DNA of 38,280 bases from Bacteroidota bacterium (GTDB taxonomy: Bacteria; Bacteroidota; Bacteroidia; Chitinophagales; JADIYW01). Of this stretch, positions 16,714 through 36,834 are shown piece by piece (within the stretch, counting starts at the first letter, position 1; the number at the start of each line of letters is the position of its first letter). The position numbers and the translations under genes are program-made. The stretch lies in the NCBI GenBank assembly GCA_028288625.1, contig JAQBNI010000143.1, positions 1-38,280 on the forward strand. Direction: 5' to 3'. The notes beneath the pieces were generated by a model. That model did not search any database. It saw only the letters and a program-made list of their open reading frames with translations, and was not told the DNA's origin.

Positions 16714-17400
16714 ATGACTCGAAAAATCAACATTGCAATAGACGGTTACTCTGCTTGTGGAAAATCTTCCACCGCTAAACAGGTTGCAAAAAAATTAGAT
16801 TATATCTATATCGATACCGGCGCAATGTACCGCGCCGTTACCTTGTATTTTCAGCAGCATTTAATAGACGTCGACAATCTCGAGGAAATAGAAAATTCAT
16901 TGCCGCAGATCAAGGTTGATTTCAGGAAAGTGGGAGATGTGCATCATACTTTTTTAAATGATGTGGATGTGGAAAGTGAAATACGTCAACCGCTGATCGC
17001 AGCAGTAGTTTCGGAAGTGGCAGCCATGAGCAACGTGCGAAAAAAACTCGTGCAGCAGCAAAAAATTATGGCTGCAAAGAAAGGCGTGGTGATGGAAGGA
17101 AGAGATATTGGTTCTGTAGTCATCCCCGATGCTGAATTAAAATATTTTATGACTGCAGATCTCGATGTGAGAACAAAACGGAGACAGGAAGAATTGCGCA
17201 AGGATACGGGAAGATTATTTCCGCTGGAAGAATTAAAAGCCAACCTGCGGCATCGCGATAAAATAGATTCAACACGTGAAGATAGTCCGCTTACAAAAGT
17301 TCCGGACGCGATTGAAATTGATACGACTCATCTCACCCTGGAAAAACAAATTAATTTGATCTACGATAATGCGTTGGAAAAGATTGAAGGAAAGTTATAA
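16714..17400 (+). CDS. cmk: cytidylate kinase
   Basis: Cmk phosphorylates CMP and dCMP with ATP in the cytoplasm, a salvage and recycling step feeding CTP and dCTP. The 228-aa length is typical. The P-loop is GYSACGKSS at residues 11-19, in the Bacteroidota-like form. It is followed by DTGAMYRAVTLY, the substrate-binding GRDIGSVVIPDAELKYF (about residues 129-145), the arginine-rich VRTKRRQEEL lid region and RDKIDSTREDSPL, which contacts CMP. The ATG sits 7 bases after a probable -7 element. Upstream is porQ, the usual partner, separated by a palindromic element. The gene's end runs into an AAGTTATAAGTTAT word repeat that includes the stop codon. Confidence 0.96.
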   Translation: MTRKINIAIDGYSACGKSSTAKQVAKKLDYIYIDTGAMYRAVTLYFQQHLIDVDNLEEIENSLPQIKVDFRKVGDVHHTFLNDVDVESEIRQPLIAAVVSEVAAMSNVRKKLVQQQKIMAAKKGVVMEGRDIGSVVIPDAELKYFMTADLDVRTKRRQEELRKDTGRLFPLEELKANLRHRDKIDSTREDSPLTKVPDAIEIDTTHLTLEKQINLIYDNALEKIEGKL

Positions 17401-17428
17401 GTTATAAGTTATCTGTTATAAGTTATAT
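17391..17428. repeat. word repeat (AAGTTATAAGTTAT family) over the cmk stop
   Basis: Imperfect repeats of AAGTTAT run from the last codons of cmk across its stop: AAGTTATAAGTTAT, then CTGTTATAAGTTAT. The last cmk codons are therefore part of the repeat. Confidence 0.6.
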
Positions 17429-30242: not shown

Positions 30243-32120
30243 ATGAAGATATTTAACAGCATACTCACTTTCACCTTACTACTTACTACTTATTACTCCT
30301 TTGCACAGCAGATACCGGCAAAAGCAATGGATGCTTATTTTAAAGCACGCGACTTTGGCAGCCGCACACAATGGGAAGAGGGAATTGAATCGCTGCAAAA
30401 GGCGATCAAGATATATCCGAAATTTACAGATGCAAAAATATTGCTTGCTGATTTTTATTACAGGCTGAGAAAGTATGACGATGCAATTACGGTTTTAGAA
30501 AGCTGTAAGAACGAAAGTGATTTTCCTCCCGGCTCCATATTTTTTCTATCTGAACTTTATTTAAAAAAGAATAACGGCAGCCAGGCAAAAGAATATGCTG
30601 AACAATATTTAGCGCAGCCAAAGACTATTCCGGCTGCCGTTCGGAAAGCACAACAAACTATTCGCAATGCAGATTTTGCAGTGGAAGCAAAAAAACATCC
30701 CGTCCCTTTTTCTCCGAAGAATTTAGGGGAAAATATCAATTCAAGAAACTGGGAATATTTTCCATACATGACACCGGACGGAAAATTGCTCGTCTTTACC
30801 CGGAAGCAATACAACCAGGAAGATCTTTTTTACGCGATGAAAGCTGATACCGGTTTTACTATGGCTGTTTCTTTTGGAAGAGAAATAAATACGGATAATG
30901 ATAACGAAGGTGCTGCAACGATGAATGCAGATGGTACACTTTTGTTTTTTACCGGCTGTGATAAAAGTGATGGTCTCGGCAGCTGCGATATTTATTTTGC
31001 TCAGAAAGTAAATAATACATGGTCGCAACCTGCGGGCATTGGTCAGCCTGTAAATTCAGGTGCATGGGAAGCGCAGCCCAGTTTTTCTTCGGATGGAAAA
31101 GCATTATATTTTTCAAGCAACCGTAAAGGCGGATTGGGCGGTTCGGATATTTGGGTAAGTTATTTAGATGAAAATATGAAGTGGAGCGAGCCAAAAAATC
31201 TGGGACCAAATGTAAACACATCGTTTGATGAGAAGAGCCCGTTCATTCATGCGGATAATCAGACATTATATTTTTCTTCCACTGGCTGGCCGGGTGTTGG
31301 CAATGCCGATATTTTTAAATCTTCTAAAGATGATACCGGCTGGACGAAGGCACAAAACCTGGGCTACCCCATCAATACGGAGAACGATGATAATTCGTTG
31401 ACGGTTTCATATGACGGGAAATCCGCGTTCATTTCATCAGATAGGGAAAATGGTTCAGGCGGATTGGATATTTATTCTTTTGAGCTTCCGGAAAATGTGC
31501 AGCCGCAAAAGATCACTTATATCAAGGCAACAGTAAAAGATGCAAAAACAAAGCAATTGCTGTCTGCTAATTATTCTGTCATCGATCTTGAATTAAAAAA
31601 AGAAGTGTACAGTGGTGTTACGGTAAATGGAAATTTCTTTGTCAGTATTCAATCGGATAAAAATTATGCATTGCAGGTGCAGAAAGAAAAATATTTATTC
31701 TATTCACAGAATATCAACCTGAAAGAAACACCGAAAGTAAAACCTTATGAATTAGAAATTTTGCTTGAACCGATCGCAGTGAATAATAAGATTGTTTTGA
31801 ATAATGTATTCTTTGATTTCGATCAGAGCGAATTAAAAACAGTTTCTTTTATTGAGCTGGATAAAGTAGTCGACTTATTGCAAAAAAATCCGGCAATAAA
31901 AATTGAGATCTCGGGTCATACAGATAATAAAGGCGATACAAAATACAACCAGGTATTATCACAAAAGCGTGCGGAAAGCGTAGTGAGTTATTTAGTGCAG
32001 AAAGGAATTGATAAAATGCGTTTAACTGCTAAAGGTTATGGTGAAACGCAGCCTGTTGCGCCCAATGATACGGAAGAAAACAAAGCGAAGAATAGAAGAA
32101 CGGAGATGAAAGTGTTGTGA
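30243..32120 (+). CDS. PorE-like TPR / PD40 propeller / OmpA-domain protein
   Basis: This protein of 625 aa, from the ATG at 30243 (an upstream TTG would add five residues), has a signal peptide ending SFAQ, TPR-like helices (about 20-100) and a WD40-like PD40 propeller with repeats such as PDGKLLVFTRK, ADGTLLFFTGCD, SDGKALYFSSN and DNQTLYFSSTG (about 160-410). A carboxypeptidase-regulatory-like domain (about 425-515) and a C-terminal OmpA peptidoglycan-binding domain follow, with GHTDNKGDTKYNQVLSQKRA and KNRRTEMKVL. This is the domain order of PorE, a T9SS-associated cell-envelope protein of Porphyromonas, but many Bacteroidota carry several paralogues. It shows no lipobox. The signal-peptide core TFTLLLTTYYS is encoded inside a word repeat. 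Confidence 0.88.
   Translation: MKIFNSILTFTLLLTTYYSFAQQIPAKAMDAYFKARDFGSRTQWEEGIESLQKAIKIYPKFTDAKILLADFYYRLRKYDDAITVLESCKNESDFPPGSIFFLSELYLKKNNGSQAKEYAEQYLAQPKTIPAAVRKAQQTIRNADFAVEAKKHPVPFSPKNLGENINSRNWEYFPYMTPDGKLLVFTRKQYNQEDLFYAMKADTGFTMAVSFGREINTDNDNEGAATMNADGTLLFFTGCDKSDGLGSCDIYFAQKVNNTWSQPAGIGQPVNSGAWEAQPSFSSDGKALYFSSNRKGGLGGSDIWVSYLDENMKWSEPKNLGPNVNTSFDEKSPFIHADNQTLYFSSTGWPGVGNADIFKSSKDDTGWTKAQNLGYPINTENDDNSLTVSYDGKSAFISSDRENGSGGLDIYSFELPENVQPQKITYIKATVKDAKTKQLLSANYSVIDLELKKEVYSGVTVNGNFFVSIQSDKNYALQVQKEKYLFYSQNINLKETPKVKPYELEILLEPIAVNNKIVLNNVFFDFDQSELKTVSFIELDKVVDLLQKNPAIKIEISGHTDNKGDTKYNQVLSQKRAESVVSYLVQKGIDKMRLTAKGYGETQPVAPNDTEENKAKNRRTEMKVL
30264..30299. repeat. word repeat inside the signal-peptide codons of the PorE-like gene
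   Basis: CACCTTACTACTTACTACTT and flanking bases lie in frame in the first 20 codons. The reverse complement contains AAGTAGTAAGGTGAAAG, matching AAGTAATAAGGTGTAAG of the repeat after queE at 15 of 17 bases. The hydrophobic core of the signal peptide is thus repeat-encoded. Confidence 0.6.
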
Positions 32121-32226: not shown

Positions 32227-32327
32227 GATCCTGAATCAAGTTCAGGATGAAGCCGGCAATGTGAGAGGATCGGCGAACGCCGATCCTCTCACAACATCTA
32301 CTGTCATCCCAAACTTGATTTGGGATC
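32227..32327. repeat. composite REP-like element with central 15-bp-arm palindrome
   Basis: The outer hairpins at 32227-32250 (core CCTGAATCAAGTTCAGG) and 32304-32327 (core, reverse-complemented, CCCAAATCAAGTTTGGG) are inverted copies differing only by paired, structure-preserving changes. Between them, 32261-32292 is a near-perfect palindrome with 15-bp arms (GTGAGAGGATCGGCG and its complement) around AA. The element fills the gap between the convergent PorE-like and kdsA genes and probably also ends transcription from both sides. A partial related unit, CATGCTGAACTTG, lies at about 32165-32177. Confidence 0.75.
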
Positions 32328-32340
32328 CAAGAAGAAAGAA

Positions 32341-33138
32341 CTATAACACCTCTTTCAACCTTGCCAATTTCTCCAATAAGCTTTTTACTTTATCTAATTG
32401 CAGCATATTTGCTCCATCGCTTAATGCTTTCGTAGGATCGGGATGTGTTTCGAGAAAGATACCATTTGCTCCGGCTCCAATGGCACATTTTGCAAGTGTT
32501 TCAATAAATTGTGGCTGTCCGCCGCTTGTGCCTGCTGAAGAATTGGGTTGCTGTACAGCATGTGTAACATCCATTACAACAGGAAAACCGGTTTGCTGCA
32601 TCAAGGGAATATTTCGGTAATCCACTATAATATCATTATAGCCAAACATCGAGCCGCGTTCCGTTAAAAAAATATTTTTATTGCCCGTAGACAAAACTTT
32701 CTCTACTGCGAATTTCATCATATCCGCATTTACAAATTGTCCTTTTTTTATGTTCACAGGTTTCCCGGTTTCTCCCGCCGCGATCAAGAGATCTGTTTGC
32801 CGGCAAAGAAATGCGGGGATCTGCAATGCATCGACAAAGTCATTTACTTTTGCAGCATCAAAAGTTTCATGTATATCCGTTATCACTGGGATATTAAAAT
32901 GCGATCTTACTTCTGCTAAAACCTGCAGCGCTTCATCGTCGCCGATGCCCGTAAAGGAATCTAATTTACTCCTGTTCGCTTTTTTGTAAGAAGCTTTGAA
33001 GATGAGCGGAATGCTGAGTTCAGCAGTAATTGCAGTTAACTGTTCAGCGACCTCAAAACAAACATCCTTGCTTTCCACCACGCATGGTCCCGCGATGAGA
33101 AAAAATGTTTTTGAAGATATGATCTCGTTATAATTCAT
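32341..33138 (-). CDS. kdsA: 3-deoxy-8-phosphooctulonate (Kdo-8-P) synthase
   Basis: KdsA condenses phosphoenolpyruvate with arabinose 5-phosphate to Kdo 8-phosphate, the first committed step toward the Kdo of lipopolysaccharide, in the cytoplasm. The 265-aa protein shows LIAGPCVVES (14-23), FKASYKKANRSK, SFTGIGDDEALQVL, ITDIHE, KGQFVNADMMKF, TERGSMFGYNDIIVDYR, DVTHAVQQPN, GTSGGQPQF and LETHPDPTKALSDG. Cys19 in GPC occupies the position that is Asn in the metal-independent Escherichia coli enzyme, so this should be the metal-dependent type. The start codon lies 5 bases from an AAACCACTTAAGG repeat that bounds the GxxExxY cassette, so the kdsA promoter or upstream reading must cross that cassette. 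Confidence 0.96.
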   Translation of the reverse strand: MNYNEIISSKTFFLIAGPCVVESKDVCFEVAEQLTAITAELSIPLIFKASYKKANRSKLDSFTGIGDDEALQVLAEVRSHFNIPVITDIHETFDAAKVNDFVDALQIPAFLCRQTDLLIAAGETGKPVNIKKGQFVNADMMKFAVEKVLSTGNKNIFLTERGSMFGYNDIIVDYRNIPLMQQTGFPVVMDVTHAVQQPNSSAGTSGGQPQFIETLAKCAIGAGANGIFLETHPDPTKALSDGANMLQLDKVKSLLEKLARLKEVL

Positions 33139-35707: not shown

Positions 35708-35741
35708 AATCGTAAATCGTACATCGTAAATTGTAATTTCG
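35708..35741. repeat. word repeat (AATCGTAAATCGTACATCG) before pyrD
   Basis: ATCGTAA-type words repeat four times and end 4 bases before the pyrD ATG at 35746, so the repeat lies where the promoter or leader of pyrD should be. The last unit, TAATTTCG, resembles a -7 element. The reverse complement occurs after porQ at 16432-16474. Confidence 0.65.
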
Positions 35742-35745
35742 CCTT

Positions 35746-36834
35746 ATGTACAAACTCATAAGGTGGTTTTTATTTTTGATGGATGCGGAAAAAGCGCATC
35801 ACCTTACTTTGCGGGTAATGAATGTTGCAGTTCGATTTCCCTTCTTTAAAAAGCTTCTTCAAAAATTATTTGTTGTTGATGATATCCGGCTGCACCGCAA
35901 TGTATTCGGTTTAACATTTCCCAATCCTGTAGGACTTGCTGCAGGCATGGATAAAAATGCGGAAAGTATTGATGCATTTGCTGCCGTTGGTTTTGGATTT
36001 ATAGAGATCGGAACCGTAACGCCTGCGGGACAAGCCGGCAACGACAAGCCGCGATTATTTCGTTTGATAAAAGACCAGGCAATTATTAATCGCATGGGAT
36101 TTAATAATGTGGGGATGGCGGGAGTGAAGGGAAATATATTGAAGAGTTCACGGTTCACGGTTCACAGTTCACGGACAAATACGGTGAACAGTGAACTGTC
36201 ATCTGTGAACAACATTATCATCGGCGGCAACATCGGCAAAAACAAAATAACGTCAAATGAAAATGCGGTGGATGATTATTTGCAATGCTTCGATACTTTG
36301 TTTGATGTAGTAGATTACTTTGTAGTGAATGTAAGTTCTCCGAATACTGCGGATTTGCGGCAATTGCAGGAAAGAGAACCGCTGACAAAAATATTAACTG
36401 CATTGCAGGCGTCAAACCAATTAAGAGCGAAACCGAAACCTATATTATTGAAGATCGCCCCGGATCTGACTGAAACACAACTGGATGATATTATCAGCAT
36501 AGTTTTTGAAACAAAATTATCCGGTATTGTAGCCACGAACACTACGATTTTGCGCGATGATCTTGAAACGGATAAAAACAAAATAGAGATGATAGGCAAT
36601 GGGGGATTGAGTGGAAAGCCCTTATCTGCAAGATCGACCGAAGTGATCCGTTATATACATTTGAAATCGGGTGGAAAGATTCCGGTGATTGCCAGCGGTG
36701 GAATTATGACTGCTGAAGATGCCATAGAAAAATTAAATGCAGGAGCAACACTTGTCCAACTGTATACCGGTTTTGTTTACGAAGGACCGGCACTCATTAA
36801 AGAAATTAATGAAAGGTTATTGAAAGATAGTTAA
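35746..36834 (+). CDS. pyrD: dihydroorotate dehydrogenase (quinone), class 2, with in-frame repeat insertion
   Basis: PyrD oxidises dihydroorotate to orotate on the inner membrane, passing electrons to quinone, in pyrimidine synthesis. The N-terminal amphipathic segment [19 protein letters not shown] is the class 2 membrane and quinone part. FMN and substrate motifs include [32 protein letters not shown] (115-121), [10 protein letters not shown] (157-166), [11 protein letters not shown] with the catalytic Ser, and ASGGI with YTGFVYEGP. At 362 aa it is about 18-22 residues longer than usual. The excess is residues about 134-155, encoded by a 65-bp palindromic repeat between the MGFNN and IIGGN blocks. 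The frame is intact. The insertion falls in a variable stretch and may be tolerated. Confidence 0.95.
36146..36210. repeat. 65-bp palindromic word repeat inserted in frame in pyrD
   Basis: GTTCAC-word repeats at 36146-36174 (GTTCACGGTTCACGGTTCAC and on) are followed by a 7-base centre and an inverted copy at 36182-36210 ending ATCTGTGAAC. The two 29-base arms match at 23 positions after reverse complementing. The repeat encodes [11 protein letters not shown]...SSVN within pyrD without breaking the frame. Confidence 0.8.

Follow-up and report, generated by a model that had tools for sequence, protein, structure and literature searches.

A Palindromic Heptad Element within an Intact pyrD Gene

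We analyzed a stretch of 38,280 nucleotides (hereafter, the window) of contig JAQBNI010000143.1 from a member of the Bacteroidota (assembly GCA_028288625.1). Near its end, the window contains a pyrD gene encoding a class-2 (quinone) dihydroorotate dehydrogenase (Table 1). The initial annotation of this region had considered pyrD as intact, and the reading frame is indeed open throughout, its product matching the Pfam family PF01180 (DHO_dh; 1.2e-84). The predicted fold of the protein is most similar to the structures 7t5k and 1f76 (TM 0.87–0.95), the latter being also the best match by sequence.

The same annotation had reported a 65-bp palindrome inside the gene, with arms (36146–36174 and 36182–36210) paired at 23 of 29 positions, and we recovered exactly this pairing. 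This is the top arm-pairing score of the window (the runner-up reached 20, and the maximum of 20 mononucleotide shuffles was 21). The palindrome is predicted to form an RNA hairpin of −33.6 kcal/mol (z = −6.1), which none of 200 shuffles equaled. The element is better described as two blocks of four heptads, inverted relative to each other and separated by an 11-nt spacer, than as a plain palindrome. At positions 36199–36201, the third heptad of the right arm presents TCA instead of the in-frame TGA that the family word GTGAAC would give.

Table 1. Features of the pyrD locus (window coordinates) and heptad arrays found in valS of two other genomes (coordinates within L286 and L250)
Feature	Position	Strand	Basis or remark
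pyrD, class-2 (quinone) dihydroorotate dehydrogenase, 362 aa, intact	35746–36834	+	ORF; Pfam; 1f76/7t5k
AAATCGT/TCGTAAA heptad array, intergenic, other resident word family	35708–35740	.	just upstream of pyrD
Palindromic heptad element	36146–36210	.	pyrD residues 134–155 of 362
Left arm, GTTCAC-G-GTTCAC-G-GTTCAC-A-GTTCAC	36146–36172	+	sequence
Spacer GGACAAATACG, 11 nt	36173–36183	+	varies across GTTCAC family members
Right arm, GTGAAC-A-GTGAAC-T-GTCATC-T-GTGAAC	36184–36210	+	sequence
Altered heptad GTCATC, third of right arm	36198–36203	+	sequence
Heptad array in valS of G057	L286:16639–16711		before ATQRPETIM
Heptad array in valS of Mucilaginibacter	L250:5465–5498		before ATTRPETIM

The Element Lies in a Predicted Disordered Loop of PyrD

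When the protein was compared with the E. coli enzyme (1f76) using phmmer, a 19-residue gap was opened exactly at the element. The stretch that links the flanking conserved blocks has 53 residues in the window species, compared with 39–43 in six congeners and with 34 in most of the pyrDs that lack long linkers. The element had been estimated to add 18–22 residues: this holds relative to distant relatives, but the gain is of 10–14 residues within its own genus.

We modeled PyrD with AlphaFold using a 50-row alignment. The model has a mean pLDDT of 93.8 and is confident throughout except at the loop of the element, where residues 143–152 alone fall below 50. In the model, this loop is located between an alpha-helix (124–132/135–141) and the GGNIGKNK strand (158–163). 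The structural check proposed in the initial annotation therefore predicts a disordered loop at the element and an intact enzyme core. We infer that the insert is nearly neutral: it is probably neutral or mildly costly to the enzyme, and probably represents selfish DNA rather than a domain.

GTTCAC Words Form a Resident Repeat Family

The genome of the window species was sampled by searches and by 60 stretches; 13 of the stretches and the window had been selected for containing matches and were excluded wherever an unbiased sample was required. Across 974 kb, we identified 35 strong arrays of period 7, against zero to five at each of the lags 4–6 and 8–12. As 7 is not divisible by 3, each copy of a word is read in a frame different from that of the preceding one. 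Selection at the peptide level therefore cannot account for this periodicity, which is made at the DNA level. The resident words include GTTCAC, GTCCAC/GTGGAC, AATGTTG, AAATCGT and ACTTACG. The GTTCACN triple GTTCACNGTTCACNGTTCAC yielded 30 matches with at most one mismatch, and its reversed control yielded none. Among 61 genomes, exact GTTCACN triples were found in the window species and in G010 only, and in none of the seven congeners searched. AAATCNN triples are common across the genus, and GATGACN triples were detected in G057 and G046 only.

About 20 GTTCAC loci of the genome were read individually. Arms of four heptads and inverted pairs of four plus four are common at these loci, both inside genes and between genes, and the copies (about 48–112 bp) have their heptads in common and differ in their spacers. 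The GTTCAC word is a resident repeat occurring in both contexts, which agrees with the earlier remark that the pyrD palindrome is of the same style as the intergenic repeats. A gene caller based on codon bias proved overly strict, with 53% of the sequence coding, and genes were defined by ORF length instead; by this rule, and in a partly chosen sample, nine of the 35 arrays are located well within ORFs of 200 aa or more, and most arrays are intergenic. Over several genomes, 26 of 169 arrays are accompanied by an inverted partner no more than 70 nt away (1–4 for shuffled words), and only four have a separate direct partner. The unit is the 7-bp word rather than a fixed palindrome, since the spacers are not conserved and the arms may differ from each other.

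These arrays might have grown locally, a chance 7-mer being extended by replication slippage and its inverted copies arising from template switching in the hairpin. The excess of inverted partners is in line with such growth, as is the proposal, credited to Mrazek in PMC4679880, that slippage produces the heptanucleotide repeats that are the commonest long simple repeats of many bacteria. However, single 7-bp steps would shift the frame of pyrD, and a layout of about four heptads per arm recurs with unlike words. Moreover, the words match those of other loci of the same genome, which purely local growth does not predict. We consider this scenario unlikely.

In-Frame Copies in Other Genes and Stop Avoidance

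Searching other ORFs of the genome for such palindromes, as the initial annotation had suggested, revealed in-frame copies of the GTTCAC family in at least seven recognizable genes besides pyrD: nadE (NAD synthetase), purD, fmt, odhB/sucB (E2 subunit), a PKS gene, trpF and a btuF-like gene (periplasmic-binding protein), all assigned with Pfam. A further copy lies in frame in a thiE-like ORF, which had no Pfam match and was named by eye, and other heptad words occur in ACC-deaminase-like and chorismate-binding genes. Comparison with congeners indicates that the array sites of Fmt and NadE are variable linkers; for the Fmt array, the loop is of nearly equal length in congeners and the net gain is only about four residues. 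Both fmt (L123:12627–13613) and odhB/sucB (L154:7511–8905) possess at least two arrays, built of different words and located in separate linkers.

Each canonical heptad of the reverse arms contains TGA. Over eight reverse arms located in ORFs, TGA was present in 0 of 8 in-frame heptads and in 23 of 24 out-of-frame heptads (P = 9e-7; Fisher test), a contrast that is conditioned on open ORFs and tells how frames stay open rather than the sequence of events. The in-frame TGA was replaced by TCA or TTA in these genes. In the pyrD of the congener L010, whose DNA we read directly, both AAATCTG heptads that would yield an in-frame TGA are altered likewise.

Reverse arms outside ORFs (L117:12087–12564, L105:437–548 and other intergenic copies) often deviate at the third heptad, as do the genic ones. 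Since several non-ORF arms show this deviation, the stop-free heptad may predate insertion, the source copies being perhaps already frame-friendly.

The Same Loops Contain Arrays of Other Words in Other Bacteroidota

We aligned pyrD from relatives and found none with the residues of the element; because of this, these residues cannot be regarded as a part of normal pyrD shared among relatives. Lag-7 arrays were detected in the same linker in 23 of 153 distinct Bacteroidota pyrDs, including one doubtful A-rich case (L252) and leaving out L173 (G070), which presents another repeat type (CCCCTAACCCCTCTCC). By comparison, 0–1 were detected at lags 4–6 and 8–13, and the shuffle mean was 0.055. The words differ across genomes: AAATCTG in congeners, GATGACN in G057, CTCAAAC in Mucilaginibacter, CACTCAC together with GAAGTAC, as well as AGTTGGC, CAATGGT/CATTCAC, CAACTGC, CAGTCGA, CCCAAAC, CTCACGA and others. 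In G057, a single-contig genome, copies of ATGACAG are followed by a spacer and then by four copies of GTCATCC. Whole or partial arrays of other words occupy this loop in five congeners and in many Chitinophagaceae-like genomes. The window thus has an in-frame coding palindrome, as had been claimed, but it does not represent a single event, since the same loop holds arrays of other words elsewhere. In L173, the pyrD loop contains, in frame, a repeat of a different type (CCTCACCCCTAACCCCTCTCCTAAGGAGAGGGG).

The window comes from a draft of 161 contigs, which could raise the suspicion of an assembly or binning artefact. Yet the frame is kept and the flanks are unique, the same phenomenon is found in the single-contig genomes G057, G337 and G305, and such loci occur in several independently sequenced named organisms; we judge an artefact extremely improbable.

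Several pyrD copies present two unlike arms, or one array only, at the same site. This bears on the idea that the palindrome regulates the pyrD mRNA or confers a role on the loop. The strong predicted RNA hairpin would fit such a function, but many pyrDs carry a single array or two non-complementary arms at this position, and the peptides differ totally between species. In addition, the same words are found in unrelated genes and between genes, and the palindrome had no match in Rfam. A functional hairpin or peptide is thus very unlikely.

We reconstructed a tree of pyrD without the linker, on which arrays must have switched between presence and absence 17 times or more. On this tree, the window species and Mucilaginibacter (L250) fall apart from the main Chitinophagaceae-like cluster of array-bearing sequences. 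Further array-bearing loops of pyrD are located before GLGAGFDKN (L189, L198 and L218), before KPILLKIAP (L166 and L188) and between TTISR and IGAGGLSG (L031, L159, L194, L197, L270 and L277), with one more in L285. The valS genes of G057 and Mucilaginibacter, which are distant genera, contain heptad arrays of different words just before their common ATxRPETIM block (Table 1).

Concerted evolution offers another scenario: an array that entered the loop long ago would have been overwritten in place, with gene conversion or recombination substituting the current resident words for its own time after time, and without any further insertion. Five congeners indeed have AAATCTG/AAATCTC heptads, complete or degenerate, at this position of pyrD; in genus g91, the left word alternates between GTACGAA and GGCACAA across all copies, with the site always occupied; and most array-bearing pyrDs belong to one large clade with generally long linkers. 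On the other hand, the window species and L250 stand outside that clade, the nearest relatives of L250 in the tree are array-free, and entirely new loops are occupied as well (pyrD sites A, C, D and E, and valS). We regard overwriting as plausible, although somewhat short of an even chance.

The arrays of pyrD share a word with 28% of the other arrays of their own genome and with 5% of those of other genomes (12 pyrDs for which further DNA of the genome was available; permutation P = 0.0011), with few arrays per genome and five of the 12 genomes without any shared word. In the window species, the match was one of 44 arrays in the unbiased sample. Finally, Chitinophagaceae-like pyrD linkers without clear arrays (L156–L171 and L186–L200; e.g., L166, L171-type) are still 3–12 residues longer than those of other Bacteroidota, and these perhaps represent decayed arrays.

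Proposed Spread and Filtering of Heptad Arrays

We propose that the pyrD palindrome represents a coding member of a short-repeat family resident in the genome, with a 7-bp unit, here GTTCACN. Members of the family usually comprise about four heptads and, beyond a short spacer that is not conserved, about four more in inverted orientation. Arrays of this kind would spread at the DNA level across Bacteroidota genomes, as arrays or as hairpins, and we infer that words move or are copied between loci. Arrays might arrive anywhere, purifying selection retaining those located between genes and those that genes can tolerate; genic copies would be filtered for a net length change that is a multiple of three, for the absence of a stop in the frame read and for an exposed variable loop. 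We consider it likely that resident arrays of 7-bp words spread in this manner and are kept between genes or in exposed protein loops. These results suggest that genes are invaded again and again by repeat DNA at sites where the protein can accommodate it.

At the pyrD site, the congeners already present longer or heptad-bearing linkers. Because no empty/filled pair was found among near-identical strains, our data do not demonstrate a clean insertion; the arrays may have spread by insertion, by conversion of older arrays or by both, and the jumping or growth inside genes implied by the initial annotation would be a possibility only. We observed no target-site duplication, and no empty site is close enough to define the ends of the element. 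We identified no mobilizing gene. Mobilization by a Y1 transposase (RAYT), as for MITE/REP sequences, was considered and set aside: the arrays have no fixed ends (e.g., a GTAG tag) beyond the word itself, and Y1_Tnp genes, found in 44 of the 61 genomes with or without these words, are not discriminating.

A broader reading is that genome-specific 7-bp words constitute a phylum-wide class of coding repeats, resulting from an undescribed copying process with a 7-nt step, with concerted turnover across loci and repeated writing at the same surface-loop sites of core proteins, yielding unrelated (7 aa)n peptides. We put this forward only tentatively and consider it rather doubtful.

Comparison with Known Repeats

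Palindromic elements inserted in frame within genes are known from Rickettsia (RPEs), and the RPE-bearing Gmk protein of R. conorii has been shown to be produced and active. RPEs (Ogata 2000 Science, 2002 Genome Res, cited in PMC6649704 and PMC2229807), of which similar elements exist in Wolbachia, are described in PMC2229807 as 105–146 bp long with a sequence conserved across the family. The RPE-like character suggested initially is supported in that the palindrome of the window is in frame within an intact conserved ORF and belongs to a family with many copies in and outside genes. As for RPEs, palindromic DNA is found both between genes and in frame within conserved genes, with a predicted hairpin, an open frame and a presumed neutral or selfish nature. 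In contrast, the heptad element consists of arrays of a fast-changing 7-bp word varying by genome, with a total length of about 50–80 bp. Its spacer is not conserved, its two arms can differ in word, and arrays recur in one and the same protein loop. The element thus resembles an RPE in its working but is not one, as RPEs are defined by a conserved sequence over 105–146 bp, including the loop.

Heptanucleotide repeats have been described as GGGAATC in Xanthomonas and GGGGA(T/C)T in Nostoc (PMC4692102), and as TAACTGA in Beggiatoaceae, Cyanobacteria and five Bacteroidetes (PMC4679880). They similarly consist of direct tandem 7-bp units, often imperfect, at many loci per genome, and inverted sets were noted in Xanthomonas. 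Unlike the in-frame elements reported here, the repeats in those accounts are of one word and mainly intergenic or upstream of genes. Single intragenic cases are known, e.g., at the end of purC (PMC4679880), but neither account includes in-frame palindromes of four plus four heptads that occupy core-enzyme loops and differ in word from genome to genome. The MITE-like coding repeats ERIC, Correia/NEMIS (107 bp) and RU are also short non-coding repeats fused in frame with genes (PMC2229807), but they have conserved ends, often a TA target duplication, and lack a heptad structure. The coding palindromes of Nematomorpha mitochondria (PMC6649704) are likewise inverted repeats within coding sequence; however, their perfect long arms encode conserved residues, without a repeat word and without an added loop.

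The initial annotation had been unaware of a described case in this phylum, and we likewise found no description of coding palindromes or in-frame heptads in Bacteroidota in the open-access literature. We found neither in-frame heptad palindromes nor reuse of the same loop with genome-specific words described in this literature, and for the words themselves it returned unrelated primers only. Our results join two facts that are usually kept apart, intergenic heptamer repeats and RPE-like coding palindromes. The loops of PyrD (and ValS), filled with different words in different genera, constitute a natural replicate experiment in which one can trace how coding repeats originate, spread, avoid stops and decay, and it becomes testable why bacterial repeats favor a 7-bp unit. 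Heptad arrays can also serve as markers of word turnover. They further call for caution, as some odd linkers of Bacteroidota proteins represent repeat DNA rather than function.

Other Repeats in the Window

Additional repeats were observed in the window. In an OmpA-like/PD40 protein gene starting from position ~30228, a CTTACTA heptad array (30275–30297) codes for LLTTYYS, a portion of the signal peptide. An AAGTTAT array (17391–17413) spans the stop of cmk, such that the final codon and the stop belong to the array. Finally, two 16-bp arms (TGTGAGAGGATCGGCG/CGCCGATCCTCTCACA) separated by a 2-nt loop form a perfect inverted repeat at 32260–32293, at the 3′ end of a kdsA-like gene (32341–33138), which is adjoined by another palindromic repeat, GTCATCCCAAACTTGATTTGGGATCC.
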